This document shows positions 8,496 to 64,000 of a stretch of 64,000 nt of DNA, piece by piece. The notes under the pieces were generated by a model. That model was not told the origin of the DNA and searched no databases. It saw only the letters and a program-made list of their open reading frames with translations. How positions within the stretch are numbered: position 1 is the stretch's first letter; each line of letters starts with the position of its first letter. The DNA lies in assembly GCA_019703815.1 (NCBI GenBank), contig AP023052.1, positions 744,001 to 808,000 on the forward strand, in the 5' to 3' direction. This DNA comes from Thaumasiovibrio occultus (GTDB lineage Bacteria > Pseudomonadota > Gammaproteobacteria > Enterobacterales > Vibrionaceae). The position numbers and the translations under genes are program-made.

Positions 8496-8580
8496 TGGTG
8501 CGGGAGGAGAGACTTGAACTCTCACACCTTGCGGCGCCAGAACCTAAATCTGGTGCGTCTACCAATTTCGCCACCCCCGC
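8496..8580 (-). tRNA. tRNA-Leu(UAG)
   Basis: 85-nt class II tRNA with long variable arm and encoded CCA. Anticodon loop TTTAGGT on a CCAGA/TCTGG stem. Version with GCGGGGG acceptor strand. Last gene of the minus-strand array. Confidence 0.97.
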
Positions 8581-8633
8581 ATAAATTTTATTTTACATCC
8601 GATCTTTCAATTGTTCAAAAAAGAAAGAAGAGA

Positions 8634-8720
8634 TGGTGCGCAAGGGGGGACTTGAACCCCCACATCCTTAAGGACACTAGCACCTGAAGCTAGCGCGTCT
8701 ACCAATTCCGCCACCTGCGC
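8634..8720 (-). tRNA. tRNA-Leu(CAG)
   Basis: 87-nt class II tRNA with encoded CCA; loop TTCAGGT on a CTAGC/GCTAG stem gives anticodon CAG. The only Leu(CAG) gene in the array. Confidence 0.97.
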
Positions 8721-8774
8721 AAATTTTTGTTTGCCACATTCATTCATATCAAGTTTAGCTTGAAAGGAAAGAAG

Positions 8775-8849
8775 TGGCAGGGCTACCTGGATTCGAACCA
8801 GGGAATGGCGGCATCAAAAGCCGCTGCCTTACCGCTTGGCGATAGCCCT
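8775..8849 (-). tRNA. tRNA-Gln(UUG)
   Basis: 75-nt tRNA with acceptor AGGGCTA/TAGCCCT, loop TTTTGAT on GCGGC/GCCGC, anticodon TTG, encoded CCA. Confidence 0.97.
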
Positions 8850-8881
8850 GCAGATACGTTTTACAACGTTATCTTAAATGA

Positions 8882-8966
8882 TGGTGCGGGAAGAGAGACT
8901 TGAACTCTCACACCTTGCGGCGCCAGAACCTAAATCTGGTGCGTCTACCAATTTCGCCATCCCCGC
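8882..8966 (-). tRNA. tRNA-Leu(UAG)
   Basis: 85-nt class II tRNA, GCGGGGA acceptor version, anticodon TAG, encoded CCA. Confidence 0.97.
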
Positions 8967-9080
8967 AGAATCTTTTCTGCCTAACTGACTCTAACTTCTA
9001 GGAAGCCTTGAGTTGTTAGTTGCTGTCATCGACAGTCTTTGTGTCTTACAAATTGATGAGATCAATCGATAAGAAAATAA

Positions 9081-9165
9081 TGGTGCGGGAGGAGAGACTT
9101 GAACTCTCACACCTTGCGGCGCCAGAACCTAAATCTGGTGCGTCTACCAATTTCGCCACCCCCGC
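9081..9165 (-). tRNA. tRNA-Leu(UAG)
   Basis: 85-nt class II tRNA, GCGGGGG acceptor version, anticodon TAG. First of three identical positions in the 817-bp repeat. Confidence 0.97.
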
Positions 9166-9207
9166 AAATTTTGTGTGCCACTTACAACGCTCAAAAGAGA
9201 GAAGAAG

Positions 9208-9282
9208 TGGCAGGGCTACCTGGATTCGAACCAGGGAATGGCGGCATCAAAAGCCGCTGCCTTACCGCTTGGCGATAGCCCT
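9208..9282 (-). tRNA. tRNA-Gln(UUG)
   Basis: 75 nt, anticodon TTG, encoded CCA; same sequence as the other Gln copies. Confidence 0.97.
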
Positions 9283-9315
9283 GCAGATACGTTTTTCAAC
9301 GTTATCTTCAATTAA

Positions 9316-9400
9316 TGGTGCGGGAAGAGAGACTTGAACTCTCACACCTTGCGGCGCCAGAACCTAAATCTGGTGCGTCTACCAATTTCGCCATCCCCGC
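9316..9400 (-). tRNA. tRNA-Leu(UAG)
   Basis: 85 nt, GCGGGGA acceptor version, anticodon TAG, encoded CCA. Confidence 0.97.
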
Positions 9401-9470
9401 ACAACAAATTGTTGTCTTAACGACTTCAGTGAAGTCACTAAGGGAGTTACTGTGGCAAGTAACAAATAAA

Positions 9471-9547
9471 TGGTGGCTACGACGGGATTCGAACCTGTGA
9501 CCCCATCATTATGAGTGATGTGCTCTAACCAACTGAGCTACGTAGCC
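9471..9547 (-). tRNA. tRNA-Met(CAU), elongator
   Basis: 77-nt tRNA with acceptor GGCTACG/CGTAGCC, loop CTCATAA on CATCA/TGATG, anticodon CAT and encoded CCA. The fully paired first acceptor base pair argues for the elongator rather than initiator form. Confidence 0.95.
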
Positions 9548-9591
9548 AATACATAATCGCTAATCAAGTTGTTAGCCACTATGAGAAATAG

Positions 9592-9666
9592 TGGCAGGGC
9601 TACCTGGATTCGAACCAGGGAATGGCGGCATCAAAAGCCGCTGCCTTACCGCTTGGCGATAGCCCT
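9592..9666 (-). tRNA. tRNA-Gln(UUG)
   Basis: 75 nt, anticodon TTG, encoded CCA. Confidence 0.97.
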
Positions 9667-9698
9667 GCAGATACGTTTTACAACGTTATCTTAAATGA

Positions 9699-9783
9699 TG
9701 GTGCGGGAAGAGAGACTTGAACTCTCACACCTTGCGGCGCCAGAACCTAAATCTGGTGCGTCTACCAATTTCGCCATCCCCGC
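9699..9783 (-). tRNA. tRNA-Leu(UAG)
   Basis: 85 nt, GCGGGGA acceptor version, anticodon TAG, encoded CCA. Confidence 0.97.
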
Positions 9784-9897
9784 AGAATCTTTTCTGCCTA
9801 ACTAACTCAAACTTCTAGTAGCCTTGAGTTGTTAGTTGCTGTCATCGACAGTCTTTTGTGTCTTATCAATTGATGAGATCAATCGATAAGAGAGTAA

Positions 9898-9982
9898 TGG
9901 TGCGGGAGGAGAGACTTGAACTCTCACACCTTGCGGCGCCAGAACCTAAATCTGGTGCGTCTACCAATTTCGCCACCCCCGC
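9898..9982 (-). tRNA. tRNA-Leu(UAG)
   Basis: 85 nt, GCGGGGG acceptor version, anticodon TAG; 817 bp from its copy at 9081. Confidence 0.97.
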
Positions 9983-10024
9983 AAATTTTGTGTGCCACTT
10001 ACAACGCTCAAAAGAGGGAAGAAG

Positions 10025-10099
10025 TGGCAGGGCTACCTGGATTCGAACCAGGGAATGGCGGCATCAAAAGCCGCTGCCTTACCGCTTGGCGATAGCCCT
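10025..10099 (-). tRNA. tRNA-Gln(UUG)
   Basis: 75 nt, anticodon TTG, encoded CCA; 817 bp from its copy at 9208. Confidence 0.97.
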
Positions 10100-10132
10100 G
10101 CAGATACGTTTTTCAACGTTATCTTCAATTAA

Positions 10133-10217
10133 TGGTGCGGGAAGAGAGACTTGAACTCTCACACCTTGCGGCGCCAGAACCTAAATCTGGTGCGTCTACC
10201 AATTTCGCCATCCCCGC
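10133..10217 (-). tRNA. tRNA-Leu(UAG)
   Basis: 85 nt, GCGGGGA acceptor version, anticodon TAG; 817 bp from its copy at 9316. Confidence 0.97.
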
Positions 10218-10287
10218 ACAACAAATTGTTGTCTTAACGACTTCAGTGAAGTCACTAAGGGAGTTACTGTGGCAAGTAACAAATAAA

Positions 10288-10364
10288 TGGTGGCTACGAC
10301 GGGATTCGAACCTGTGACCCCATCATTATGAGTGATGTGCTCTAACCAACTGAGCTACGTAGCC
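10288..10364 (-). tRNA. tRNA-Met(CAU), elongator
   Basis: 77 nt, anticodon CAT, encoded CCA; 817 bp from its copy at 9471. Confidence 0.95.
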
Positions 10365-10408
10365 AATACATAATCGCTAATCAAGTTGTTAGCCACTATG
10401 AGAAATAG

Positions 10409-10483
10409 TGGCAGGGCTACCTGGATTCGAACCAGGGAATGGCGGCATCAAAAGCCGCTGCCTTACCGCTTGGCGATAGCCCT
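10409..10483 (-). tRNA. tRNA-Gln(UUG)
   Basis: 75 nt, anticodon TTG; 817 bp from its copy at 9592. Confidence 0.97.
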
Positions 10484-10515
10484 GCAGATACGTTTTACAA
10501 CGTTATCTTAAATGA

Positions 10516-10600
10516 TGGTGCGGGAAGAGAGACTTGAACTCTCACACCTTGCGGCGCCAGAACCTAAATCTGGTGCGTCTACCAATTTCGCCATCCCCGC
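10516..10600 (-). tRNA. tRNA-Leu(UAG)
   Basis: 85 nt, GCGGGGA acceptor version, anticodon TAG; 817 bp from its copy at 9699. Confidence 0.97.
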
Positions 10601-10714
10601 AGAATCTTTTCTGCCTAACTAACTCAAACTTCTAGTAGCCTTGAGTTGTTAGTTGCTGTCATCGACAGTCTTTTGTGTCTTATCAATTGATGAGATCAAT
10701 CGATAAGAGAGTAA

Positions 10715-10799
10715 TGGTGCGGGAGGAGAGACTTGAACTCTCACACCTTGCGGCGCCAGAACCTAAATCTGGTGCGTCTACCAATTTCGCCACCCCCGC
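10715..10799 (-). tRNA. tRNA-Leu(UAG)
   Basis: 85 nt, GCGGGGG acceptor version, anticodon TAG; 817 bp from its copy at 9898. Confidence 0.97.
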
Positions 10800-10841
10800 A
10801 AATTTTGTGTGCCACTTACAACGCTCAAAAGAGGGAAGAAG

Positions 10842-10916
10842 TGGCAGGGCTACCTGGATTCGAACCAGGGAATGGCGGCATCAAAAGCCGCTGCCTTACC
10901 GCTTGGCGATAGCCCT
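10842..10916 (-). tRNA. tRNA-Gln(UUG)
   Basis: 75 nt, anticodon TTG; 817 bp from its copy at 10025. Confidence 0.97.
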
Positions 10917-10949
10917 GCAGATACGTTTTTCAACGTTATCTTCAATTAA

Positions 10950-11034
10950 TGGTGCGGGAAGAGAGACTTGAACTCTCACACCTTGCGGCGCCAGAACCTA
11001 AATCTGGTGCGTCTACCAATTTCGCCATCCCCGC
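10950..11034 (-). tRNA. tRNA-Leu(UAG)
   Basis: 85 nt, GCGGGGA acceptor version, anticodon TAG; 817 bp from its copy at 10133. Confidence 0.97.
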
Positions 11035-11104
11035 ACAACAAATTGTTGTCTTAATAACTTCAGCGAAGTCATCAAGGGAGTTACTGTGGCAAGTAACAAA
11101 TAAA

Positions 11105-11181
11105 TGGTGGCTACGACGGGATTCGAACCTGTGACCCCATCATTATGAGTGATGTGCTCTAACCAACTGAGCTACGTAGCC
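11105..11181 (-). tRNA. tRNA-Met(CAU), elongator
   Basis: 77 nt, anticodon CAT; 817 bp from its copy at 10288. The tandem repeat register ends here. Confidence 0.95.
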
Positions 11182-11231
11182 ATATGTATATCGCTGCCCT
11201 CAAAGAGCGGAGCAGTATACCTTAAAAAATT

Positions 11232-11306
11232 TGGCAGGGCTACCTGGATTCGAACCAGGGAATGGCGGCATCAAAAGCCGCTGCCTTACCGCTTGGCGAT
11301 AGCCCT
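11232..11306 (-). tRNA. tRNA-Gln(UUG)
   Basis: 75 nt, anticodon TTG, encoded CCA. Its upstream flank differs from the repeated copies, so it lies outside the 817-bp register. Confidence 0.97.
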
Positions 11307-11335
11307 ACAGATACGTTTACAACGTTATCTTAAAG

Positions 11336-11420
11336 TGGTGCGGGAAGAGAGACTTGAACTCTCACACCTTGCGGCGCCAGAACCTAAATCTGGTGCGTCT
11401 ACCAATTTCGCCATCCCCGC
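11336..11420 (-). tRNA. tRNA-Leu(UAG)
   Basis: 85 nt, GCGGGGA acceptor version, anticodon TAG, encoded CCA. Confidence 0.97.
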
Positions 11421-11447
11421 ACATTGTAACCTCCCTAAGGAGGAGAG

Positions 11448-11524
11448 TGGTGGCTACGACGGGATTCGAACCTGTGACCCCATCATTATGAGTGATGTGC
11501 TCTAACCAACTGAGCTACGTAGCC
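11448..11524 (-). tRNA. tRNA-Met(CAU), elongator
   Basis: 77 nt, anticodon CAT, encoded CCA. First gene of the array, about 60 nt downstream of the promoter. Confidence 0.95.
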
Positions 11525-51882: not shown

Positions 51883-53073
51883 ATGAACCCAATTCTCCCT
51901 CTCATCGGTCGCACCGATGCTCTGTTTACGCAAGACATCGCCCAGCATGAAGCTGAGCTTTCTAACATCGTTTCTCAGTCTCGTTTTCTTGTTCTCGGCG
52001 GTGCGGGCTCAATTGGCCAAGCGGTGACTAAAGAGATCTTCAAACGTCATCCGAAAAAGCTTCATGTTGTCGATATCAGCGAAAACAATATGGTGGAATT
52101 GGTCCGCGATATTCGCAGTTCATTTGGCTACATCGACGGTGATTTCCAAACCTTCGCTTTGGACATTGGCTCGATTGAGTACGATGCGTTTATTAAGGCG
52201 GATGGTCAGTACGACTACGTACTAAACTTGTCTGCACTTAAACATGTTCGCAGCGAAAAAGATCCGTTTACCTTGATGCGTATGATCGATGTGAACGTGT
52301 TCAACACCGACAAAACCATTCAACAATCGATCGATGCGGGCGTGAAGAAATACTTCTGCGTCTCGACCGACAAAGCGGCTAACCCAGTCAACATGATGGG
52401 CGCCTCTAAGCGCATTATGGAAATGTTCTTGATGCGCAAGAGCGAACAAATCGCGATTTCTACTGCGCGTTTCGCCAACGTGGCATTTTCCGATGGCTCT
52501 TTGCTGCACGGCTTTAACCAGCGTTTGCAAAAGAACCAGCCGATCGTGGCACCCAACGACATTAAGCGTTACTTCGTGACGCCACAAGAATCAGGCGAGT
52601 TGTGTTTGATGTCGTGCATTTTTGGTGAAAATCGTGACATTTTCTTCCCGAAATTGAGTGAAGCATTGCACCTGATTACTTTTGCTGATATCGCGGTGAA
52701 ATATCTTGAGCAGCGTGGCTACGAGCCTTATTTGTGTGCCAACGAAGACGAAGCGCGTGAACTGGCGCACACGCTGCCTGAACAAGGCAAGTGGCCATGC
52801 CTGTTCACTGAAAGTGATACCACTGGTGAAAAAGACTTCGAAGAATTCTTTACTGACAACGAAACGCTCGACATGGCGCGTTTTGACAACCTTGGCGTGA
52901 TCAAAAACGAGCCATTGTACGAGCCTGAAAAGTTGGCGCTGTTTGAATCGACCATCGCGCAGATGAAAACAGATCGTGCTTGGACCAAAGAGCAAATCGT
53001 TGAGCTGTTTTTTGCCATGATCCCAGATTTTGGTCATAAAGAGACTGGCAAATACCTCGACAGCAAGATGTAA
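51883..53073 (+). CDS. legB: Nucleotide-sugar 4,6-dehydratase LegB
   Basis: 396-residue SDR of the capsular polysaccharide dehydratase type; starts the legionaminic acid route by 4,6-dehydration of a GDP- or UDP-GlcNAc. It has the Rossmann motif GGAGSIGQA near 39-47, VSTDKAANPVNMMGASKR (about 170-187, containing the catalytic region) and the extra C-terminal segment FTESDTTGEKDFEEFF typical of LegB proteins. The ATG at 51883 matches the family start LLPLIGR; a longer frame upstream is unconserved. Ribosome binding site is weak. First gene after the ops element. Confidence 0.9.
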   Translation: MNPILPLIGRTDALFTQDIAQHEAELSNIVSQSRFLVLGGAGSIGQAVTKEIFKRHPKKLHVVDISENNMVELVRDIRSSFGYIDGDFQTFALDIGSIEYDAFIKADGQYDYVLNLSALKHVRSEKDPFTLMRMIDVNVFNTDKTIQQSIDAGVKKYFCVSTDKAANPVNMMGASKRIMEMFLMRKSEQIAISTARFANVAFSDGSLLHGFNQRLQKNQPIVAPNDIKRYFVTPQESGELCLMSCIFGENRDIFFPKLSEALHLITFADIAVKYLEQRGYEPYLCANEDEARELAHTLPEQGKWPCLFTESDTTGEKDFEEFFTDNETLDMARFDNLGVIKNEPLYEPEKLALFESTIAQMKTDRAWTKEQIVELFFAMIPDFGHKETGKYLDSKM

Positions 53074-53082
53074 GGAATGAGC

Positions 53083-54234
53083 ATGAAACCGTCATCGATT
53101 GTCGAGTTTGTTCGCGACACCTACCAAACCAACGATTTCATTCCGCTGCACGCGCCGACCTTTGATGGCAACGAAAAAGCGTATGTGATGGAAACCATCG
53201 ACAGCACCTTCGTCTCGAGTGTGGGTAAGTTTGTTGATGAATTTGAACATAAAATTGAAGCCTTTACAGGCACGGCGAAAGCGGTGGCCACCGTTAACGG
53301 TACGGCTGCATTGCACGCGGCGCTTTACATGGCGGGCGTTGAGCGCGGTGATTTTGTGATCACCCAAGCGCTGACGTTTGTCGCGACTTGTAATGCGCTA
53401 TACCACATGGGCGCGGAGCCTATTTTTGTCGATGTATCGCCAGTGAGTCTGGGCTTATGTCCTAAAGCGCTTGAGCGTTACCTTGAAGAGCACGCAGAAC
53501 TGACCGAGCAAGGCTGTTTCCATAAAGGGCGCAAACAACGCATTAAAGCGGTGGTGCCAATGCATACGTTCGGACATCCAGTAGAATTGGATGAGCTGAT
53601 CGCGCTGTGTCACAAATGGCAACTTGCGCTGGTGGAAGACGCGGCGGAAAGCCTAGGCTCATTTTACAAAGGCCAGCACACCGGCATACTGGGTGAGTTT
53701 GGCGCGGTGAGTTTTAACGGCAACAAGATCATCACCACCGGTGGGGGTGGCATGGTGCTGTGTCGCGATCTGGAAGATGGCAAGCGCACCAAACACGTGA
53801 CCACTACGGCAAAAGTGCCGCACCCGTTTGAGTTCTATCACGATGAAGCGGGCTTTAACTATCGTATGCCAAACCTCAATGCAGCTCTAGGCTGCGCGCA
53901 GATGGAAGTGCTGGATAGCTATTTAGCGCAAAAACGCGTGCTTGCCGCGCGTTATGAGCAGTTTTTTGCTAGCAGTGACATTCGTTTTGTCACGGAGCCA
54001 AGTTACGCGCAGTCAAACTACTGGCTTAATGCCGTGATTTGTCCAGACAGCGAAATGCGCGATGCGCTGCTGGCGGGCACTAATGATGCTGGCGTGATGA
54101 CCCGCCCGATTTGGAAGTTGATGCACCGCTTACCGATGTTTGCCAATGCGCCGCGTGGTGATTTAACGCAATCGGAATTTATTGAAGCGCACTTAGTCAA
54201 CTTGCCAAGTACGCCTGTGGTTCTGGCGGACTGA
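53083..54234 (+). CDS. legC: PLP aminotransferase LegC
   Basis: 383-residue DegT/DnrJ/EryC1/StrS aminotransferase that aminates the 4-keto sugar made by LegB. PLP lysine K215 lies in SFNGNKIITTGGGG, with VEDAAESLGS near 183-192 and the substrate-loop MPNLNAALG near 270. The ATG at 53083 is used because AAGGA is six bases upstream; another ATG lies six bases earlier. Nine bases after legB. Confidence 0.92.
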   Translation: MKPSSIVEFVRDTYQTNDFIPLHAPTFDGNEKAYVMETIDSTFVSSVGKFVDEFEHKIEAFTGTAKAVATVNGTAALHAALYMAGVERGDFVITQALTFVATCNALYHMGAEPIFVDVSPVSLGLCPKALERYLEEHAELTEQGCFHKGRKQRIKAVVPMHTFGHPVELDELIALCHKWQLALVEDAAESLGSFYKGQHTGILGEFGAVSFNGNKIITTGGGGMVLCRDLEDGKRTKHVTTTAKVPHPFEFYHDEAGFNYRMPNLNAALGCAQMEVLDSYLAQKRVLAARYEQFFASSDIRFVTEPSYAQSNYWLNAVICPDSEMRDALLAGTNDAGVMTRPIWKLMHRLPMFANAPRGDLTQSEFIEAHLVNLPSTPVVLAD

Positions 54235-54385
54235 CGCGAAGGTCGCCGATGCGCTTTCGGTTTGCGGCGCAATGAGCCGCTGAGCGGTCAGGCATCGAGC
54301 GGCACTTAATTCGGTTGCAAGGCCACGCTAGATAGAAACTATCAGGCTTTGCAACTGGCTGAGACCTTTCAAAGGAGCGAGTGAC
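54235..54385. other. Spacer between legC and legG with a long imperfect hairpin
   Basis: 151 bp in an otherwise closely packed operon. GGTTGCAAGGCC, TAGATAG, CTATCA and GGCTTTGCAACT (about 54312-54356) can fold back on one another. A separate GC-rich part precedes it. No T run follows. AAAGGAGCGAGTGAC provides the legG ribosome binding site. Confidence 0.55.
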
Positions 54386-55567
54386 ATGACGTCAGCGCAC
54401 AACAAAAAAGTCGCGGTGTTTACTGGCACAAGAGCAGAGTATGGTCTGCTCTTTTGGCTTTTAAAAGACATCCAAAATGATCCGGAATTGCAACTGCAGT
54501 TGCTGGTGTCAGGCATGCATCTCTCGCCAGAGTTTGGTGAAACCTATCAACAAATCGAGCGAGATGGCTTTCACATCGATGAGAAGATTGAGATCTTACT
54601 CTCTTCGGATTCGGCAGTAGGTACTGCGAAAAGCATGGGACTGGGCGTGCTTGGCTTTGCTGATGCGCTGGCGCGTTTAGCCCCTGATGTATTGGTGATT
54701 TTAGGTGACCGCTTTGAAGCATTGGCCGCGGCGCAAACCGCAATGATCCTGCGCATTCCTATCATTCACCTGCACGGCGGCGAGATCACCGAAGGGGCGT
54801 ACGATGATGCCATTCGCCACGCGATCACCAAGTTAAGTTATTTGCATGGCACCTCGACCGAGGAATATCGCCAGCGCGTGATCCAGTTGGGTGAAGCGCC
54901 TGAGCGGGTACGCAATATTGGTGCGATTGGTCTTGACCATCTAAAGCGCGCCGAGTTTATGTCGGTCTCAGAGCTTTCTGAGTCACTCGATTTCTCGTTA
55001 ACAAAGCCTTATTTTTTGGTCACCTACCATCCAGTTACCTTGGGCAATGAAGCGCCAGAAGCGTCATTCCAAGCGCTGCTCAATGCTCTTGATGAACACC
55101 CAGCTCACCAAGTGATTTTGACCTATCCGAACGCCGATGACGGCGGGCGTCGCATTATTCCAATCTTAGAGGCGTACGCCAAAGCGAGACCTGAGCGCGT
55201 CTTGGCGATCCCATCTTTGGGTCAAGTGCGTTACCTAAGCGCGGTGAAGCATGCCGCGGCGGTAGTAGGCAACTCATCCAGTGGTATCATTGAAGTGCCT
55301 GCGTTTGATGTGCCAACCGTCAATATTGGTGCGCGCCAGAAAGGGCGTTTGGCGGCGAAAAGTGTTTTACATTGTGCGCCAACGCAAGCGGCGATCGGTG
55401 ATGCAATGACGCAAGCGCTGTCTCGCAGTTACTGCCAAGATGGGGAAGTGATTGACAACCCTTATGGGCAAGGCGACAGCAGTGGGCAGGTGATTGAGAT
55501 GATCAAATCACTGCAGTTTGACCCATGTAAAACCTTTTTTGATGTCGCTTTTGAGCGAGTGGAGTAA
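54386..55567 (+). CDS. legG: Hydrolysing NDP-sugar 2-epimerase LegG (NeuC family)
   Basis: 393-residue enzyme that removes the nucleotide and epimerises C2, giving 2,4-diacetamido-2,4,6-trideoxy-mannose, the substrate for LegI. N-terminal VFTGTRAEYGLLFWLL, HLHGGEITEGAYDDAIRHA (about 127-145) and VGNSSSGIIEVP (near 288) are the NeuC/UDP-GlcNAc 2-epimerase signatures. Preceded by a strong AAGGAG. NeuC and LegG are hard to tell apart by motif; the 4,6-dehydratase and aminotransferase beside it favour LegG. Confidence 0.9.
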   Translation: MTSAHNKKVAVFTGTRAEYGLLFWLLKDIQNDPELQLQLLVSGMHLSPEFGETYQQIERDGFHIDEKIEILLSSDSAVGTAKSMGLGVLGFADALARLAPDVLVILGDRFEALAAAQTAMILRIPIIHLHGGEITEGAYDDAIRHAITKLSYLHGTSTEEYRQRVIQLGEAPERVRNIGAIGLDHLKRAEFMSVSELSESLDFSLTKPYFLVTYHPVTLGNEAPEASFQALLNALDEHPAHQVILTYPNADDGGRRIIPILEAYAKARPERVLAIPSLGQVRYLSAVKHAAAVVGNSSSGIIEVPAFDVPTVNIGARQKGRLAAKSVLHCAPTQAAIGDAMTQALSRSYCQDGEVIDNPYGQGDSSGQVIEMIKSLQFDPCKTFFDVAFERVE

Positions 55568-55570
55568 CCC

Positions 55571-56644
55571 ATGACCCTAATTATTGCTGAAGCCGGCGTG
55601 AATCATAATGGCGATGAAGCCTTGGCGTTTCAGTTAGTGGATGCGGCCCATCAAGCGGGCGCGGACATTGTGAAATTCCAAACCTTTAAAGCGAAAAATT
55701 TGGTGACCGAGCAGGCCAAACAAGCTGAATACCAAGTCACCAACACCCAAAAAGAAGAATCGCAGTTGGCGATGCTAAGCCGTTTAGAGCTCTCTTATGA
55801 GGTGCATCATCAATTGGTGCAGCATTGTCAATCGCTGGGGATTGAGTTTCTCTCGACCGCGTTCGACTCAGAAAGTCTGGTATTCTTGGTGCAAGACTTG
55901 GGTTTGAAGCGCCTTAAGCTGCCATCTGGCGAGCTAACCAATGCGCCTTTGGTGCTTGAGCATGCTCGCACTGGGTGCGATTTGATTGTTTCCACTGGCA
56001 TGGCAACCATGGCCGAAATTGAAACCGCACTGGGCGTGATCGCCTTTGGTTACACCGCTGAGCGCGATGCCGAGCCATCGATGCAAGCATTCCAAGAGGC
56101 GTACGCCTCGGCGTTGGGGCAACAAGCACTGAAAGAAAAAGTGACCATCTTGCACTGCACCACCGAATACCCTGCGCCAATGGAAGAGATCAATTTGCGC
56201 GCGATGGACACCTTAGGCAGCGCGTTTGATTTACCAGCGGGCTATTCTGATCACAGCGAAGGGATCACCATTCCTATTGCTGCGGTGGCGCGCGGCGCGG
56301 TACTGATTGAAAAGCACTTCACTCTCGATAAAAACATGGAAGGGCCGGATCATAAAGCGTCCCTTGAGCCACATGAGCTGGCAGCCATGGTGACGGCGAT
56401 CCGTCAAGTGGAAGTGGCGCTGGGTAGCCGCGTAAAATCGCCTACCGTGTCGGAAGTGAAAAACAAGGCCGTAGCGCGAAAAAGCTTGGTGGCCGCGCGT
56501 GCGATCAAAGCGGGCGAAGCCTTTGATGCCGATAATGTCACCATCAAACGTCCGGGCTCTGGTCAATCACCATACCATTATTGGGATTTGCTCAAGCGCC
56601 GCGCAGGACAAGATTACCAAGCCGGAGATCTGATCTTTGAATAA
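55571..56644 (+). CDS. legI: N,N'-diacetyllegionaminate synthase LegI (NeuB family)
   Basis: 357-residue NeuB-type synthase that condenses the six-carbon sugar with phosphoenolpyruvate to form the nonulosonic acid. AEAGVNHNGD at 7-16, KFQTFKAKNLV near 35, and PAGYSDHSEGI near 222 are the family signatures; a C-terminal SAF/antifreeze-like domain covers about 290-357. Three bases after legG. Confidence 0.93.
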   Translation: MTLIIAEAGVNHNGDEALAFQLVDAAHQAGADIVKFQTFKAKNLVTEQAKQAEYQVTNTQKEESQLAMLSRLELSYEVHHQLVQHCQSLGIEFLSTAFDSESLVFLVQDLGLKRLKLPSGELTNAPLVLEHARTGCDLIVSTGMATMAEIETALGVIAFGYTAERDAEPSMQAFQEAYASALGQQALKEKVTILHCTTEYPAPMEEINLRAMDTLGSAFDLPAGYSDHSEGITIPIAAVARGAVLIEKHFTLDKNMEGPDHKASLEPHELAAMVTAIRQVEVALGSRVKSPTVSEVKNKAVARKSLVAARAIKAGEAFDADNVTIKRPGSGQSPYHYWDLLKRRAGQDYQAGDLIFE

Positions 56645-57305
56645 ACTCGATAGACCGATTGTACTGATCGGTGGCGGTGGGCATGCTGCGGTGTTAGCGG
56701 ATCTGTTGCTGCGCCAAGGCGAAACCATCGCGGCAGTGATAGCCCCCGATGAGATTGCCGAGCGCGGCGTGTTTGCCCAGTTACTGCAATTGGGCACGGC
56801 GCACCATCGTCAAGACAGCGATGTTGCGCAGTTTACGCCAGAGTCGGTCTATTTGGTGAATGGGTTAGGGATGATGCCGAAATCGAACTTTCGCAAGCGT
56901 CTTAATCAAGCGTTTCTTGCCAAGGGATATCAGTTTGCCTCAGTGATTGCCACAAGCGCAGAGATCTCCCCTTTTGCCACGCTCGAAGATGGGGTGCAAA
57001 TTCTCGCTGGGGCGATCGTCCAAGCGGGCGCGCGCATTGGCGCGCACTGCATCGTCAATACCGCTGCCATGGTCGAGCACGATTGCGAGCTTGGGCAATA
57101 CAACCACCTTGCGCCGCGCGCGACCTTGTGTGGCCAAGTCTGTACGGGTGACGATGTGTATATCGGCGCGGGTGCGACGTTGATTCAATGCTTATCATTG
57201 GGCGCTGGCGCGATCGTTGGCGCTGGGGCAATACTGACCCGCGATCTTGCGGCTGGCGAAATCGCCTATCCAGCGAGAGCTGTAATTAAAACAATTGAAA
57301 ATTAA
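56637..57305 (+). CDS. NeuD/LegH-like sugar acyltransferase
   Basis: 222-residue protein of the NeuD family: N-terminal PglD-like domain (VLIGGGGHAAVLADLL, 9-24) and a C-terminal left-handed beta-helix of hexapeptide repeats with the NTAAMVEHDCELGQYNHLAPRA block near 138-160, where H is the catalytic base. It probably N-acetylates the 4-amino sugar (LegH/PglD role) or O-acetylates the product. TTG start at 56637 overlaps the end of legI; GGAG is nine bases upstream. The operon has no other acetyltransferase, so the LegH role is likely. Confidence 0.85.
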   Translation: MNKLDRPIVLIGGGGHAAVLADLLLRQGETIAAVIAPDEIAERGVFAQLLQLGTAHHRQDSDVAQFTPESVYLVNGLGMMPKSNFRKRLNQAFLAKGYQFASVIATSAEISPFATLEDGVQILAGAIVQAGARIGAHCIVNTAAMVEHDCELGQYNHLAPRATLCGQVCTGDDVYIGAGATLIQCLSLGAGAIVGAGAILTRDLAAGEIAYPARAVIKTIEN

Positions 57306-57318
57306 AGAAAGGTGATCC

Positions 57319-58380
57319 ATGAGCCACTGTTGGAATAACGTGCTGATCAAACCCGACAATACCATGCGTGATGCTTTGGAAATCATCAACAATGAGGCGC
57401 TGCGTGTGGTGCTGGTGGTTGATGAAGCGCAGCGTTTGCTGGGGGTGGTCACCGATGGGGATATCCGTCGAGGCTTGCTGAAAAATTTACCGCTGACGGA
57501 AACCGTCGACAAGGTGATGAACACGTCTCCGACTTTTGCAGCGGTGGGCACCTCACGTGACGATTTGATTGCCCTGATGGAGCAACGCGGGATCTTGTCG
57601 GTGCCACTGATTGATGATGATGGCGTTATTGTCGGACTAGAAACGCTCCATGGGGCGTTACATCAGCCAAAGCATGCTAACCCTGTATTCATTATGGCTG
57701 GGGGGTTTGGTACTCGACTGCGTCCATTAACCGACAGTTGCCCCAAACCAATGTTAAAAATTGGCAATAAACCCATTTTAGAAACGGTGATCCGTAGCTT
57801 TATTAAAGCGGGCTTTGAGAATTTCTACATTTCGACGCATTACATGCCAGAACAAATCGAGGCGCATTTTGGTGATGGTAGCGATCTGGGTGTTTCCATT
57901 ACCTACGTGTACGAAGAAAGCCCACTTGGTACCGGTGGCGCGTTGGGTTTACTGCCCCAAGATCTGCCGAAAGATTTGCCGCTCATCATGATGAATGGTG
58001 ACGTGTTGACCAAAGTCGATTTTCAGCGTCTACTCGATTTCCATGTGGAAAATGATGCGGATGCCACCATGTGTGTGCGCGAATACGAATATCAAATCCC
58101 GTACGGCGTGATCAACGGCGAAGGTAACAAAATCGTCGGTATGGTGGAAAAGCCGATTCAACGCTTCTTTGTTAATGCTGGGATTTATGTTGTCTCACCG
58201 CGCGTGATCCAATCGGTGCCGATGAACCATCGCATCGACATGCCAACCCTGCTTGAAGAGCACATGAACGAGCGTGACAAGATCATGATGTTCCCAATTC
58301 ACGAATACTGGCTCGATATCGGTCGTATGGACGACTTTAATCGTGCTCAAGCTGACATTCATACCTTGGGAATGGACTGA
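57319..58380 (+). CDS. ptmE: Glucosamine-1-phosphate guanylyltransferase-like PtmE
   Basis: 353-residue fusion: two CBS motifs at about 10-120, then a nucleotidyltransferase domain (FIMAGGFGTRLRPLTDSCPKP, roughly 128-148, and NGDVLTKVDF near 230). This CBS-NTP-transferase layout is that of Campylobacter PtmE, which makes GDP-glucosamine for the GDP-linked legionaminic route. The CBS part may sense nucleotides. AAGG precedes the ATG at good spacing. Nucleotide specificity is inferred from the architecture and context. Confidence 0.85.
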   Translation: MSHCWNNVLIKPDNTMRDALEIINNEALRVVLVVDEAQRLLGVVTDGDIRRGLLKNLPLTETVDKVMNTSPTFAAVGTSRDDLIALMEQRGILSVPLIDDDGVIVGLETLHGALHQPKHANPVFIMAGGFGTRLRPLTDSCPKPMLKIGNKPILETVIRSFIKAGFENFYISTHYMPEQIEAHFGDGSDLGVSITYVYEESPLGTGGALGLLPQDLPKDLPLIMMNGDVLTKVDFQRLLDFHVENDADATMCVREYEYQIPYGVINGEGNKIVGMVEKPIQRFFVNAGIYVVSPRVIQSVPMNHRIDMPTLLEEHMNERDKIMMFPIHEYWLDIGRMDDFNRAQADIHTLGMD

Positions 58381-59379
58381 ATGAACGTACCTTCTTCTAT
58401 AAGTAAAGTCGCGGTGATTGGGTTGGGCAATATCGCGACTCGTCATCGTCGCAACCTAAAAGCGCTGTATCCAAATGTCACGTTGCTTGCGATGTCAGCG
58501 AGTGGTCGAATTCCTGAAGAAGCGATCAGCGATTGTGATGGGATAGTCGGTAGCATTGATGAATTGATTGCTCAACGAGTGCAACTTGTCATTGTGGCAT
58601 CGCCAGCACCATTTCACGCTCGCCACGCCATAGCATTACTCGAAGCGAATATACCCGTTCTGATAGAAAAGCCATTGGCGACAACCAGCGAGGATTGCCA
58701 AGCTATCTGTAAGGCTGCTGAACGAAGTGGTACGCCTGTCGCGGTTGGCTATTGCTTACGTTACTTAAGTTCCGCTCTGCAGATCAAAGCTCTGTTCGAG
58801 CAAGGAATTCTTGGAGAGTTGTATCACGCGCATATAGAGATTGGTCAGTACCTACCGGATTGGCGCCCGAGCAAAGACTACCGTGAATGTGTGTCGGCAC
58901 GCCCAGAACTGGGTGGCGGTGCATTGTTAGAACTCAGCCATGAACTCGATTACAGCCAATGGTTGCTAGGGCCCTTAGCGGTTCAACATGCCATTTTGCG
59001 TTCTTCTCATGAACTTGGCCTTGAGGTTGAAGACAGTGCAGATGTCATGAGCACGACGCAATCTGGCGCGGTGGTGACCATTCATCTTGATTTCCTACAG
59101 CGTCAAGCGTATCGACGTTGCCGTTTTGTCGGTCAGTTGGGCGCTTTAGAGTGGGATTTGATTGGTAACGCGATTTATTTCACTGATGGTGAAGGGCGAC
59201 GTGCTCTTTACAGTGAACCTGAGTGGGATAAAAACCAAATGTATTTAGAGATGGTTCGTGATTTTGTGGCTGCCACTCAGCACCAAACCAACCAAGCGAT
59301 TACTCTGCAAGAAGCGAGCTTGAGTGTGTCTCTTATCGAAAAAATTAAGCAACAGGCTCAGCCTAAAGCGGTGAGTTGA
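58381..59379 (+). CDS. ptmF: Gfo/Idh/MocA-family oxidoreductase, PtmF-like
   Basis: 332-residue NAD(P)-dependent oxidoreductase with Rossmann motif VIGLGNIATRH (12-22) and EKPLATTSEDC near 92-102, typical of the Gfo/Idh/MocA family. It starts directly after the ptmE stop and precedes legF, the position of ptmF in the Campylobacter ptm cluster, where PtmF and PtmA are implicated in supplying the amino-sugar precursor. The exact reaction here is not known. Confidence 0.8.
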   Translation: MNVPSSISKVAVIGLGNIATRHRRNLKALYPNVTLLAMSASGRIPEEAISDCDGIVGSIDELIAQRVQLVIVASPAPFHARHAIALLEANIPVLIEKPLATTSEDCQAICKAAERSGTPVAVGYCLRYLSSALQIKALFEQGILGELYHAHIEIGQYLPDWRPSKDYRECVSARPELGGGALLELSHELDYSQWLLGPLAVQHAILRSSHELGLEVEDSADVMSTTQSGAVVTIHLDFLQRQAYRRCRFVGQLGALEWDLIGNAIYFTDGEGRRALYSEPEWDKNQMYLEMVRDFVAATQHQTNQAITLQEASLSVSLIEKIKQQAQPKAVS

Positions 59380-59380
59380 G

Positions 59381-60073
59381 ATGATGAAGAACTTTGCTTT
59401 TATCTTTGTTCGTGGTGGTTCTAAAGGATTACCACGTAAAAACATTAAGTTACTTGCTGGCAAGCCATTACTGCAATATTCGGTTGATACCGCGCTGGCT
59501 GTGCCGTCTATTGATCAAGTGTTTGTCTCCACGGAAGATGCCGAAATTGCTGACGTTGCTCGCCGCTCTGGTGCAGTTGTGATTGATCGTCCTGTGGAGC
59601 TGGCAAGCGACACCAGCCCGGAATGGCTTTCATGGCGTCATGCAATCGAGTGGGCGAAAGAGCATTATGGTGCATTTGATGGGTTTGTTAGCCTGCCAGC
59701 CACGAGTCCGCTGAGATCTGTTGATGATGTCGAAGCGGCTATGCGAAAACGCATTGAGGCGAAGGCCGATATTTGTATCTCAGTGACACCAGCAAGTCGA
59801 AGCCCTTATTTCAATATGGTCAAGCACACGGATGCAGGATTTGTTGAACTCGTGAACAAACCACAAGGTGAAGTGACGCGCCGCCAAGATGCGCCAGAAG
59901 TGTTCGATATCACCACTGTGGTTTACGCGACAACGCCAGATTTTGTGCTTAATCACTATGGCATCTTTACTGGAAAGGTCACCAGCATCGAAGTGCCCAA
60001 AGAGCGTGCGGTGGATATCGATGATATTTACGATTTTAAATTGGCAGAAGCGATTGTGCAGGAGCAGTGCTAA
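59381..60073 (+). CDS. legF: CMP-N,N'-diacetyllegionaminate synthetase LegF
   Basis: 230-residue CMP-nonulosonate synthetase of the NeuA/PseF/LegF family; activates the sugar with CTP. The N-terminal motif FVRGGSKGLPRKN (8-20) and SLPATSPLRSVDDVE near 103-117 are conserved. Starts one base after ptmF and shares its last base with the ATG of the next gene. Confidence 0.9.
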   Translation: MMKNFAFIFVRGGSKGLPRKNIKLLAGKPLLQYSVDTALAVPSIDQVFVSTEDAEIADVARRSGAVVIDRPVELASDTSPEWLSWRHAIEWAKEHYGAFDGFVSLPATSPLRSVDDVEAAMRKRIEAKADICISVTPASRSPYFNMVKHTDAGFVELVNKPQGEVTRRQDAPEVFDITTVVYATTPDFVLNHYGIFTGKVTSIEVPKERAVDIDDIYDFKLAEAIVQEQC

Positions 60074-60843
60074 TGGAACGACTACTTGATAATAAAACCA
60101 TCTTGATTGCAGGCGCAGGCGGTTTGTTGGGGACTCAGCTTGTGGCTGCGGTATTGGCGCAAGGTGCCAACGTTATTGCTGCTGATTTGCACGTTGAAGC
60201 GATGCGCGAGCGTTTAGTTAAGCAAGGGGTTCAAATCGGCGATTCTGCGTTGACGCTCACTGAGCTTGATATTACCAGCGAGAGTAGTGTGAAAGGCTTG
60301 TTTGCTCAGTTTGAACGTATTGATGGCGCGGTTAATACGACTTACCCACGTAATAAAACTTACGGCGCACACTTTTATGATGTCACGCTTGAGAGTTTTA
60401 ACGACAACTTGTCATTACATCTAGGCAGCGCTTTTTTGTTTACTCAGCAATGTGCGAGCTATTTTTCCGCTCGTCAGCAGCCATTTTCGTTGGTCAATAT
60501 TTCCTCTATCTACGGCGTAGTGGCACCTAAGTTCTCGATTTATGATAACACGTCAATGACCATGCCCGTTGAGTATGCTGCGATCAAATCGGCGATCCAA
60601 CATTTGAACAAGTATGTGGTGGCCTATGTGAATGACAGCCGATTCCGCATTAACAGTGTCAGCCCGGGAGGCATCTTCGATCATCAACCTGAAGCGTTTC
60701 TTGAGGCATATAAAAAACAAACTCATGGTGCGGGTATGCTAGATGTGAGTGAGGTACTTGGCTCAGTCATGTTCTTACTGTCAGAACAATCTCGTTACGT
60801 GACTGGTCAGAACATTATTGTCGATGATGGCTTTTCTCTGTGA
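60073..60843 (+). CDS. ptmA: Short-chain dehydrogenase, PtmA-like
   Basis: 256-residue classical SDR: glycine motif AGAGGLLGTQ (13-22), catalytic serine in VNISSIYG near 142 and YAAIK (Y-x3-K) near 170. The ATG at 60073 overlaps the legF stop codon and has CAGGAG upstream; a GTG six bases earlier is less likely. Order ptmE-ptmF-legF-ptmA matches the Campylobacter cluster. Substrate not established. It is the last gene before the AT-rich section. Confidence 0.82.
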   Translation: MERLLDNKTILIAGAGGLLGTQLVAAVLAQGANVIAADLHVEAMRERLVKQGVQIGDSALTLTELDITSESSVKGLFAQFERIDGAVNTTYPRNKTYGAHFYDVTLESFNDNLSLHLGSAFLFTQQCASYFSARQQPFSLVNISSIYGVVAPKFSIYDNTSMTMPVEYAAIKSAIQHLNKYVVAYVNDSRFRINSVSPGGIFDHQPEAFLEAYKKQTHGAGMLDVSEVLGSVMFLLSEQSRYVTGQNIIVDDGFSL

Positions 60844-62331
60844 GTGGTTTTTCATCCAAGCAATCACTAATTAATACGGTGTGTAACTTCTCTTCCTTGT
60901 TGATTAACGTTTTATTGTTAGTTGTGATGACGCCATATTTAATTAAGAATATTGGGATATCAAGTTACGGAGTATTTGCGCTTTCAGCGGTTTTTGTAGA
61001 CTATGTAAGCATACTTACACAGTCAATTACTGGTACTATTAATAGAGAAGTAGGGGTTAAATACCACAAAGGAAATATTATAGATGCCAATGAAGTGTAT
61101 AGTACGTCTGTTTATGTTGTATTATGCGTTTCGTCATTGATTTTCCTTATCGGGTTAATCCTGTTCTACAACATTGGAAGTATTATTTCAATAGATGAGG
61201 TGATGGTGCACGATGCAGGGATTTTGTTCTTTTGTGTTTTCGTTTCTCTTGCCGTTTCAATATTTAACTCCACTTTATTTGTGATATTTTCTCTGGATAA
61301 TAAAACCAATTATATCCAGGCTGTGAACCTGTTTAGATCTTTTTCCCGTTTCATTGCGATTGTTTTTTTATTTGAACTTGGTTTTGATAATTTAGCTTTT
61401 ATTGGAATTGCAACTTTGATTTCCTCACTTCTTTCTCTTGGGCTTAGTTTTATATTAACAAGACTGGTTGATGTTGAACTTAAGTTTTTAATTAGAGGTT
61501 TTAACCGGTCTGTTGCATGTTGTTTATTGTGCTTTGGTGGCTGGTTTTTAGTCAATCAAGTTGGCCTTGTTATGTTTTCTAAAACAGATATTTTATTGAT
61601 TAATGAGTATCTAGGTTCTTCTAGTTTCTGGTAGTTATGCTGTAGCACAAAAATAGGTGATTTTTTTTAGGGTATATAGTGGTGTTATCATTACGTTAGT
61701 TTCTCCTTATTTGATTTACTACTTTGGTAGGAGTACTAGTAAAGATGGAAAATACCTATCAGACTTTTATGTCTGTTTTGTCTGTGTCGTCTGCGATACT
61801 ATGTCTAGTATCTATTTATGTGGTATTTTATTCTAGTGAGATAATTTATATTTGGCTTGGAAGTGGATATGATGATGTTAGTGTCATAGTTTCCATAATG
61901 GTAATACCTATGGTTCTCTATAGGCATGGAACCTTTTTCTTCTCTGTTGTTAACTTCTGGCAATGTTCGTTTTACAGGATTAGTGACGATATTAATTGGG
62001 GTTCTTTCGGTTTTATTTAATTTTTTGTATTTGAATGGCTATTTCTCAATAGATGTTGATGATGTTCTTGTTGTGACGTCAATAACAAGTTTTTCTTTAT
62101 TTTTCAAGAATGCAGTAATATTGCCGGCTTTTTCGATCTTTAAACTAGGGGTGTTGCTTTCTGATGTTTTAAGGTTATACAAGATAGTTATTATTGTTGC
62201 TATATCGTCTTTTTTTATTTATTTATTTTTAGATGTTGTGGTGTCTGGGGTTGATATTTTTTAAAATTAACGGTCATGTGGTAGTGACTTTATTTTATTT
62301 TGTTTTTCCATTGTTGTTCTTTATTGGTTAA
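60840..62331 (+). pseudogene. Wzx-like polysaccharide flippase, broken by frameshifts
   Basis: A flippase of the MOP/Wzx superfamily, moving lipid-linked repeat units across the inner membrane. The first 264 codons are intact (start GTG at 60840 overlapping the ptmA stop), with about seven membrane segments. Then homology continues in shifting frames: SYAVAQK after 61630, IGDFFRVYSG after an A-run at about 61655 and a T-run at about 61667, FYSSEIIYIWLG after about 61780, LLLTSGNVRFTGL after about 61935, and a last membrane segment after a T-run at about 62262. About six single-base shifts are needed. Read together the product would be some 495 residues, normal for Wzx. Confidence 0.8.
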
Positions 62332-62376
62332 AGCGATTGTACTTTGTAGATTTAATTAATTTTTCAAGGGGTAAAA

Positions 62377-63393
62377 GTGACATCTAGAGAAATAGTTTTT
62401 TCCGTAATTATTCCCGTATACAATGGTGAAGATTTTATTCGCCGTTGTCTAGACTCGATAGTTTCACAAAGCTGTAGTGTTGAGTATGAAGTTATAGTAG
62501 TAGATGATGCATCAACTGATAATACAGCTGTGCTGCTAAGTAAGTACGCTAGTGAGTTTGACGGTTATGTTCAAGTGGTGACGCATGAGGAAAATAAGCG
62601 TCAAGGTGGTGCCAGGAATACAGGGTTAGATATTGCTAGAGGGAAATACATACTGTTTCTTGATGCTGATGATTGGCTTGAGCTTGATGCTTTGAATACA
62701 TTGGAAAAGAATTGGATAATAACTTTGATATTATCCAATTTGGTCATTTTACTACTGATGGTGAATGCTATAAAAAGAGAACCCTTCAATAAATTAGGGC
62801 TTTCATTACCTTTGGAAAGAAAGCAAATGGCTGGTTTTATTCTTTTCCCTAATTCATTTGTAACAAAACTTTACAAGGCTAGCCTATTTAATGGTGATTC
62901 TAAGTTGAGGTTTCGTGAGAACATTTTTTATGAGGATAATTGTTTTGCTGCGGATTTAGCACTAAAGGAAACCCAATATTAAAGTAATAGATCGGTATTT
63001 GTACAATTATTATCAAAATTGTTTTTCAACGACGCGATTAAAGAACGATGCCAGACAATTTGAACGTGCTGAATCTGCTTTGGTTCTGTTAGGTATTTTT
63101 AGAAGTGATACCGATTTTTATAATGAGTTCACTGAAGAAATTGAGTATAGATTCTTTGAGCTATTTTTGATGAATTCTCTGGTTTCTTTCTATAAATTAT
63201 TTGATTCATTTCCTTTGGATGAGCTTGTCAATTTGGTTTGTGTTTTTAAAGGAAAGGGTTTTTTATATTTAGTAATAAATATTTCAAGAAACTAAGCTTT
63301 AGAAAGAGATTTTCAATGCGTATTTTGATTACTTTCCCTAACTTGTTTTGTAAAGCACTGGTTTTTTTTAAAGTATGCAGAAGCAAAAATTAA
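62377..63393 (+). pseudogene. Family-2 glycosyltransferase, broken by frameshifts
   Basis: GT-A fold transferase starting GTG at 62377 with AGGGG upstream. FSVIIPVYNGEDFIRRCLDS (8-27), VDDASTDNT and FLDADDW are the GT2 donor-site motifs. Frame shifts occur near 62703 (a short section reads NNFDIIQFGHFTTDGE in another frame), near 62785, near 62975 (then VIDRYLYNYYQN), and near 63280 (then KLSFRKRFSMRILI) before the stop at 63393. The repaired protein would have about 338 residues. Acceptor unknown; part of the AT-rich strain-specific section. Confidence 0.78.
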
Positions 63394-64000
63394 ATGAGCT
63401 GGTTTTGTCGGCTCTTGATAATGAGAATAATATAGATAGAATTCTATGCTCGGTTAGCGATTATCGATTTAGACCCGAAAGATTCACATCGAAACCTTTT
63501 GGTTTGTCTATCTCTCTTCTTAATGTTTTAACTTTTTTATCATTCCATATGCACTTTCTTGGGTAAGGAAAACGAAAGTAACAGCAAGAGAAGAGAGGCA
63601 GAGATTGTTCTTTAGTTGTTCGTTGATATCAAAAAAAATACAGAAAGATCAACTTCCTTTTGTAAGCTCTCTTGAGATTTGTTGGGGGTGGTCTCCTTTT
63701 GGCATTTCCATTGTTGAATATTATAGTTGTGTGGTTTCTGCAATCTTTGACTCTAGGTTCAGCCTCAATAATGGGGCGTGTTTGGTTTTTATTCCAGATA
63801 TGCTCTTGTTAAAGAAAGAAATATCCAGAGTAAGTTTGACAGAGTTAGTAATTACGAATCATTATGATCGATGGGCCTACTTCTTGTGTGAGATTGCAAA
63901 AGAACTAAATGTAAAAGTTACGCTTTTTCAACATGGTATATTATCGAGAAAATATATTCAGCCAAATTTTATCTCAAAAATAGATAAGTTGTATGTGTTT
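63375..64000 (+). pseudogene. Probable glycosyltransferase, frameshifted and cut by the window end
   Basis: Starts ATG at 63375 overlapping the previous gene by 19 bases; frame is lost near 63555 and recovered as VTAREERQRLFFS and onward. The open part includes VITNHYDRWAYFLCEIAKEL and VKVTLFQHGILSRKY, a pattern like sialyl- or polysialyl-type transferases and other capsule enzymes that carry a QHG motif. It could be the legionaminic acid transferase, but the family is not certain. The 3' end lies beyond the window. Confidence 0.6.

Follow-up and report, generated by a model that had tools for sequence, protein, structure and literature searches.

Nextera XT libraries have been reported to strongly under-represent low-GC DNA, with a coverage loss that grows as GC falls (PMC6796507). 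Long-read assemblies have been described as more error-prone, and as needing more polishing, where the Illumina library is biased (PMC6325685), and false pseudogenes arising from low coverage have been documented as well (PMC11017572). The stretch of DNA considered here, referred to as the window, comprises 64,000 nucleotides of Thaumasiovibrio occultus and corresponds to C1:744,001-808,000 of a 4.50 Mb genome, which is available as two contigs (C1 and C2) of 3.14 and 1.37 Mb in an assembly that looks like a finished two-chromosome genome. Towards the end of the window, three successive genes are broken by a dense cluster of frame changes, and these are very probably base-level errors in the assembled sequence which the organism itself does not carry.

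The features concerned are listed in Table 1. Upstream of the cluster lies a group of sugar biosynthesis genes which includes a LegC-family aminotransferase (TIGR04181) and a NeuB-type synthase (TIGR03569), both above the cut-off, with normal GC and no visible frame break. The sugar is predicted to be nonulosonic, probably of the legionaminic type, and named relatives of a neighbouring gene include Vibrio, Aeromonas and Psychromonas. Directly after this sugar cluster, at 60.8 kb, the GC content drops and stays low, with values of 0.27-0.38 per 300 bp and 32% overall, against ~49% for the genome. The three affected genes resemble those usually found in a surface-sugar cluster.

Table 1. Features at the distal end of the window, in window coordinates, with the evidence on which each is based.
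Feature	Position	Strand	Basis
Neighbouring genes for nonulosonic (probably legionaminic-type) acid biosynthesis	51898..60843	+	TIGR04181, TIGR03569, open frames
Putative flippase-like membrane gene, ~515 codons	60840..62387	+	Three-frame translation, homologue identity, minimum-change count
Family-2 glycosyltransferase gene	62377..63394	+	PF00535, alignments, stops, coding-frame HMM
Third gene, possibly sialyl/legionaminyl-transferase-like	63375..64000, past the window to ~64,387	+	Homologue identity, stops, HMM
AT-rich tract holding the cluster	60850..64000; end at ~64.45 kb, outside the window		GC profile

Three-frame translation and a minimum-change count indicate that reading through the stops of the three genes between ~61.62 and 64.15 kb takes at least 11 frame changes (7 + 2 + 2), a count that depends on the assumed gene ends (62380, 63390 and 64386). 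Two more shifts, at ~62.71 and ~62.79 kb, come from homology to a Paracoccus glycosyltransferase (L109), no stop forcing either of them, while the pair at ~61.65/61.67 kb can be read as one in-frame stop instead, a reading which the alignment prefers at penalty 15. The total is therefore given as 11-14 frame changes in ~2.5-2.75 kb. An earlier note on this DNA had placed about eleven shifts in three successive genes between 61625 and 63560, and the 10-12 counted there uphold it; the last change, at ~64.14 kb, falls beyond that end and outside the window. The same note described the preceding 61 kb as essentially free of shifts. A reading by eye of positions 1-60,843, based on open frames and on the segments given by the HMM, with homology left aside, agrees, with no gene visibly split between frames. 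As an observation, the cluster is confirmed as real.

Controls for chance were obtained with a frameshift-tolerant aligner and with a coding-frame HMM. At penalty 15, the aligner places 7 shifts in 644 aligned codons here, three in the flippase-like gene, three in the glycosyltransferase and one in the third gene (over 204 + 246 + 194 aligned codons). In 40 pairs of intact AT-rich genes with a mean identity of 32%, the same aligner finds none in 11,297 codons at this penalty; lowering it to 12 gives 8 shifts, and to 10 gives 13. The HMM, trained on AT-rich genes, makes 4 state changes in 295 kb of intact AT-rich open reading frames (ORFs), which is an in-sample test, and at the same setting makes 12 between 61.6 and 64.4 kb, including gene borders and one unresolved stretch. 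A raw count of frame switches over 679 kb was also considered and was dropped, most of the switches being ordinary gene borders; four other dense places that were inspected turned out to be runs of separate genes.

Alignments and control together show that protein similarity is kept on both sides of those frame breaks that were tested by homology, and for these shifts the earlier claim that homology resumes in another frame holds. Among plasmids, no close DNA relatives of the broken stretch were found, and in a search of the 295 other family genomes the only matches were 29-53 bases long, in 13 of them, which ruled out a base-by-base comparison. A scan of genome contigs with the intact part of the first gene likewise found no relative. 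Scanning with the neighbouring intact gene yielded 30 loci, the source of both the homologues of the third gene and the AT-rich controls.

The first gene, putatively a flippase, is open to ~61,615 and then carries 7 frame changes, or 5 together with one in-frame stop. Its identity to a homologue from the same family (L014, genome G102) is 30% in the intact half and, with shifts marked, 27-29% in the broken half, a value that the frameshift-tolerant alignment can slightly inflate. The pieces gave no convincing Pfam match, and the first half of the homologue matches Rft-1 weakly, below the curated cut-off. The homologous gene itself is also divided, close to a run of C (L014:1531-1575), between two open frames, a split which may be an error or phase variation.

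In the glycosyltransferase the catalytic part is intact, with a PF00535 match at 1.7e-33, and shifts fall near 62.71, 62.79, 62.97, 63.26-63.29 and 63.36 kb. The first three are stable at every penalty tried against the intact Paracoccus protein, which is the best of three homologues fetched; the other two (L107 and L108) place shifts less consistently, 0 and 1 respectively at penalty 15 and none at 20. When a further 22 glycosyltransferase ORFs, a set in which some genes occur twice, were aligned at penalty 12, four shifted near 62.71 kb, one crossed without a shift and 17 stopped matching at or before 62,712. The further frame changes in this gene come from stops and the coding-frame HMM. 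The third gene shares 29-35% identity with proteins whose genes lie close to these same sugar genes in a member of the Colwelliaceae (L068) and in Aeromonas veronii (L063), both of which support its shift at ~64.14-64.19 kb at penalties 15 and 20 and neither at 30; the shift at ~63.54 kb is based on stops and the HMM. Its match to PF07922 is weak and sub-threshold (E 0.056), and the product is possibly a sialyl/legionaminyl-transferase-like protein. The real genes are probably intact, encoding a flippase-like protein and two transferases of the legionaminic-type sugar cluster.

Homopolymers account for part of the pattern. For 14 shift intervals set by hand, runs of at least 6 occur in 5 against 1.26 expected (P 0.005) and runs of at least 5 in 7 against 3.4 expected (P 0.03), while runs of at least 4, present in 9 against 6.8 expected, show no clear excess (P 0.17). 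The earlier note had placed several shifts in A or T runs. The cluster is thus only partly homopolymer-linked.

The composition of the tract is likewise an incomplete guide. Its first 780 bp are clean (P ~0.04 for 13 uniformly spread shifts); the border of the cluster is therefore not a matter of GC alone and would have to be set by coverage. Thirteen islands with GC <0.37 occur in the 1.494 Mb examined (an N stretch left out). By eye, and without homology for most, six of the 13 look frame-broken, the flagged one included, three hold intact ORFs, two are non-coding and two are uninspected. The broken-looking islands have a GC of 31-36%, and one of them, at C1:915 kb, may be merely truncated. 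At C2:717174-718905 (L146:17174-18905), an AT-rich island carries an AAA ATPase, possibly OLD-like, gene in several frames, its AAA_21 match being confined to the last part of the profile (238-303 of 304) and neighbouring pieces lying in other frames; these breaks are probably errors of a similar kind. At C2:257.5 kb, where GC is slightly above the limit, a sugar-isomerase-like gene also seems to be split, and C1:2005.2-2009.3 kb, the other large AT-rich island, has no clean ORFs. Intact AT-rich genes do exist elsewhere, for example at C1:2038.7-2039.5 kb and C2:259.5-260.3 kb.

A statistic based on sequence segments, or windows, of different GC content was also compiled. Of the 21 overlapping segments of this genome that fall in the lowest GC class, 12 are poor in ORFs of at least 150 aa (3 of 6 within the flagged island, 3 of 6 within the island with the adapter described below, 6 of 9 elsewhere), compared with 1 of 151 in the 30 related loci. 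This control is not neutral, as the loci were chosen for a sugar gene and are densely packed with genes, whereas the segments of this genome include intergenic DNA. With the flagged island excluded (GC <0.36, non-overlapping segments, ORFs of at least 200 aa), the figures are 6 of 11 against 2 of 129. In all GC classes up to 0.50, however, long open frames are scarcer in this genome than in the related loci, with 40 of 103 segments poor in them against 3 of 188 at GC 0.38-0.42, an excess that follows in part from the same difference in gene density. Against random stretches of a genome of the same genus (G001), the lowest class gives 12 of 21 versus 1 of 5 and the next class 6 of 21 versus 5 of 29. 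The statistic is suggestive only, the difference from G001 being weak.

A direct technical trace is present in the assembly, in the largest other AT-rich island and not in the window. On the minus strand of C1:2,005,686-2,005,769 (L096:15686-15769), 27 of 27 bases of the P5 adapter are found together with the Nextera tagmentation end, an 18-mer with 2 mismatches; after the adapter, the plus strand continues with 15 A's and then with apparently unrelated sequence of no evident meaning. A P5 and tagmentation end followed by poly-A is taken here, from adapter names and read layout, to be a read running off a short insert. The adapter was found once, in this genome only, among 296 sampled family genomes, while no adapter was found in the window, TruSeq being among those searched there, and no P7 adapter in the whole genome. 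Such a read would presumably find its way into a finished chromosome only at a place with next to no other coverage. An adapter within a chromosome is in itself a concrete and fixable error.

Two other loci were noted. On the minus strand of the window, positions 8496-11524 hold an array of 23 tRNA genes (Leu, Gln and Met) in near-identical repeats, in which a 300-nt unit occurs three times at a spacing of 817 bases and is at least 98% alike; the copy number of this array could also be an assembly matter. At C2:1115882-1116067 (L106), a lone 61-aa piece between other genes resembles, by eye, the C-terminal end of a short-chain dehydrogenase and is possibly a gene remnant.

The earlier note had suggested sequencing or assembly error in AT-rich DNA, and this suggestion is backed by the kept frames, by the other broken-looking AT-rich islands and by the assembled Nextera read-through. 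Short reads from a tagmentation (Nextera) library would probably have missed the very AT-rich islands, where the consensus would then rest on few or unpolished reads and single-base insertions and deletions, partly in A/T runs, would remain. We infer the read type, the coverage gap and the intact state of the organism's own genes.

True decay has also to be weighed, in which the organism itself lost the function of the three genes, now drifting as pseudogenes, for example after loss of a surface sugar. The genes are adjacent and probably belong to one pathway, so that losing one could relax selection on the others, and the 7 of 14 shift intervals with a run of at least 5 are places where slippage is common. 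Decay should, as the earlier note pointed out, add substitutions and stops. Ratios computed from the values given for Vibrio mutation-accumulation lines in PMC5854121 amount to ~17-18 substitutions per single-base indel in the wild type and 4-12 in mutS mutants. On these ratios and a uniform spectrum, 11-13 shifts predict 9-12 new stops (wild type) or 2-8 (mutators), numbers which the transition-biased fraction lowers by about a quarter. The inferred path runs through 1,136 codons, of which 260 belong to the intact part, and meets no in-frame stop; at most one is needed, a test softened by the path having been chosen to avoid stops. With the V. cholerae mutS ratio (PMC5854121), 2-3 stops are predicted and the probability of one or no stop is 0.23-0.32, which makes the test weak in that case. 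The upstream sugar genes look intact, and decay leaves the adapter read in the second AT-rich island unexplained. True decay is thus considered very unlikely.

Fainter still is the prospect that the indels are real and that single-base hypermutation in AT-rich DNA is striking a surface-sugar export and transfer module whose protein sequence is otherwise preserved. The module would then have been inactivated by several hits very recently, or a so far undescribed mutator specific for indels would be at work in AT-rich islands.

A mutator, or locus-specific hypermutation in the form of phase variation by slippage, would suit surface-sugar genes, which are classic contingency loci; 5 of the region's 10 runs of at least 6 coincide with a shift interval, and the homologous gene in L014 is also split into two open frames. 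However, mutS (an 863-aa open frame) and mutL (683 aa), the two genes covered by the mismatch-repair check, are full length and without stops, and 9 of the 14 shift intervals lack a run of at least 6, with shifts spread over 11-14 sites and not limited to a single long repeat tract or a handful of them. Phase variation does not operate through a dozen off-switches at once, and unrelated AT-rich genes (the ATPase and the sugar-isomerase-like gene) look broken too, leaving this explanation barely credible. Programmed frameshifting or other unusual decoding, which would keep the genes functional and would need homology to resume as it does after the testable shifts, is practically dismissed by at least 11 shifts, some forward and some backward, that are scattered over unrelated sites in the three genes, since to our knowledge no decoding handles at least 11 such shifts.

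If the frame changes are assembly errors, this genome, and perhaps others produced in like manner, may have genes in AT-rich islands misannotated as pseudogenes. Genes for surface polysaccharides, which are often AT-rich, are for that reason exposed to such errors.

Comparison with the described cases shows likeness and difference in each. The spurious pseudogenes reported for low-coverage and hybrid assemblies (PMC11017572) are, as is proposed here, frameshifted genes that are really intact; that report treats genome-wide rates, whereas here the errors appear in AT-rich islands. Long-read assemblies with a GC-biased Illumina library, as described in PMC6325685, resemble the present one in their residual indels, which are over-represented at homopolymers and worse with biased short-read libraries, although the sequencing platforms are known here only through the Nextera-type adapter, which points to short-read chemistry. 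As for the low-GC loss reported for Nextera XT (PMC6796507), the adapter found here is of the Nextera type, which may or may not mean the XT kit, the coverage loss here is presumed, and the occurrence of the breaks in islands of 31-36% GC is in line with that loss.
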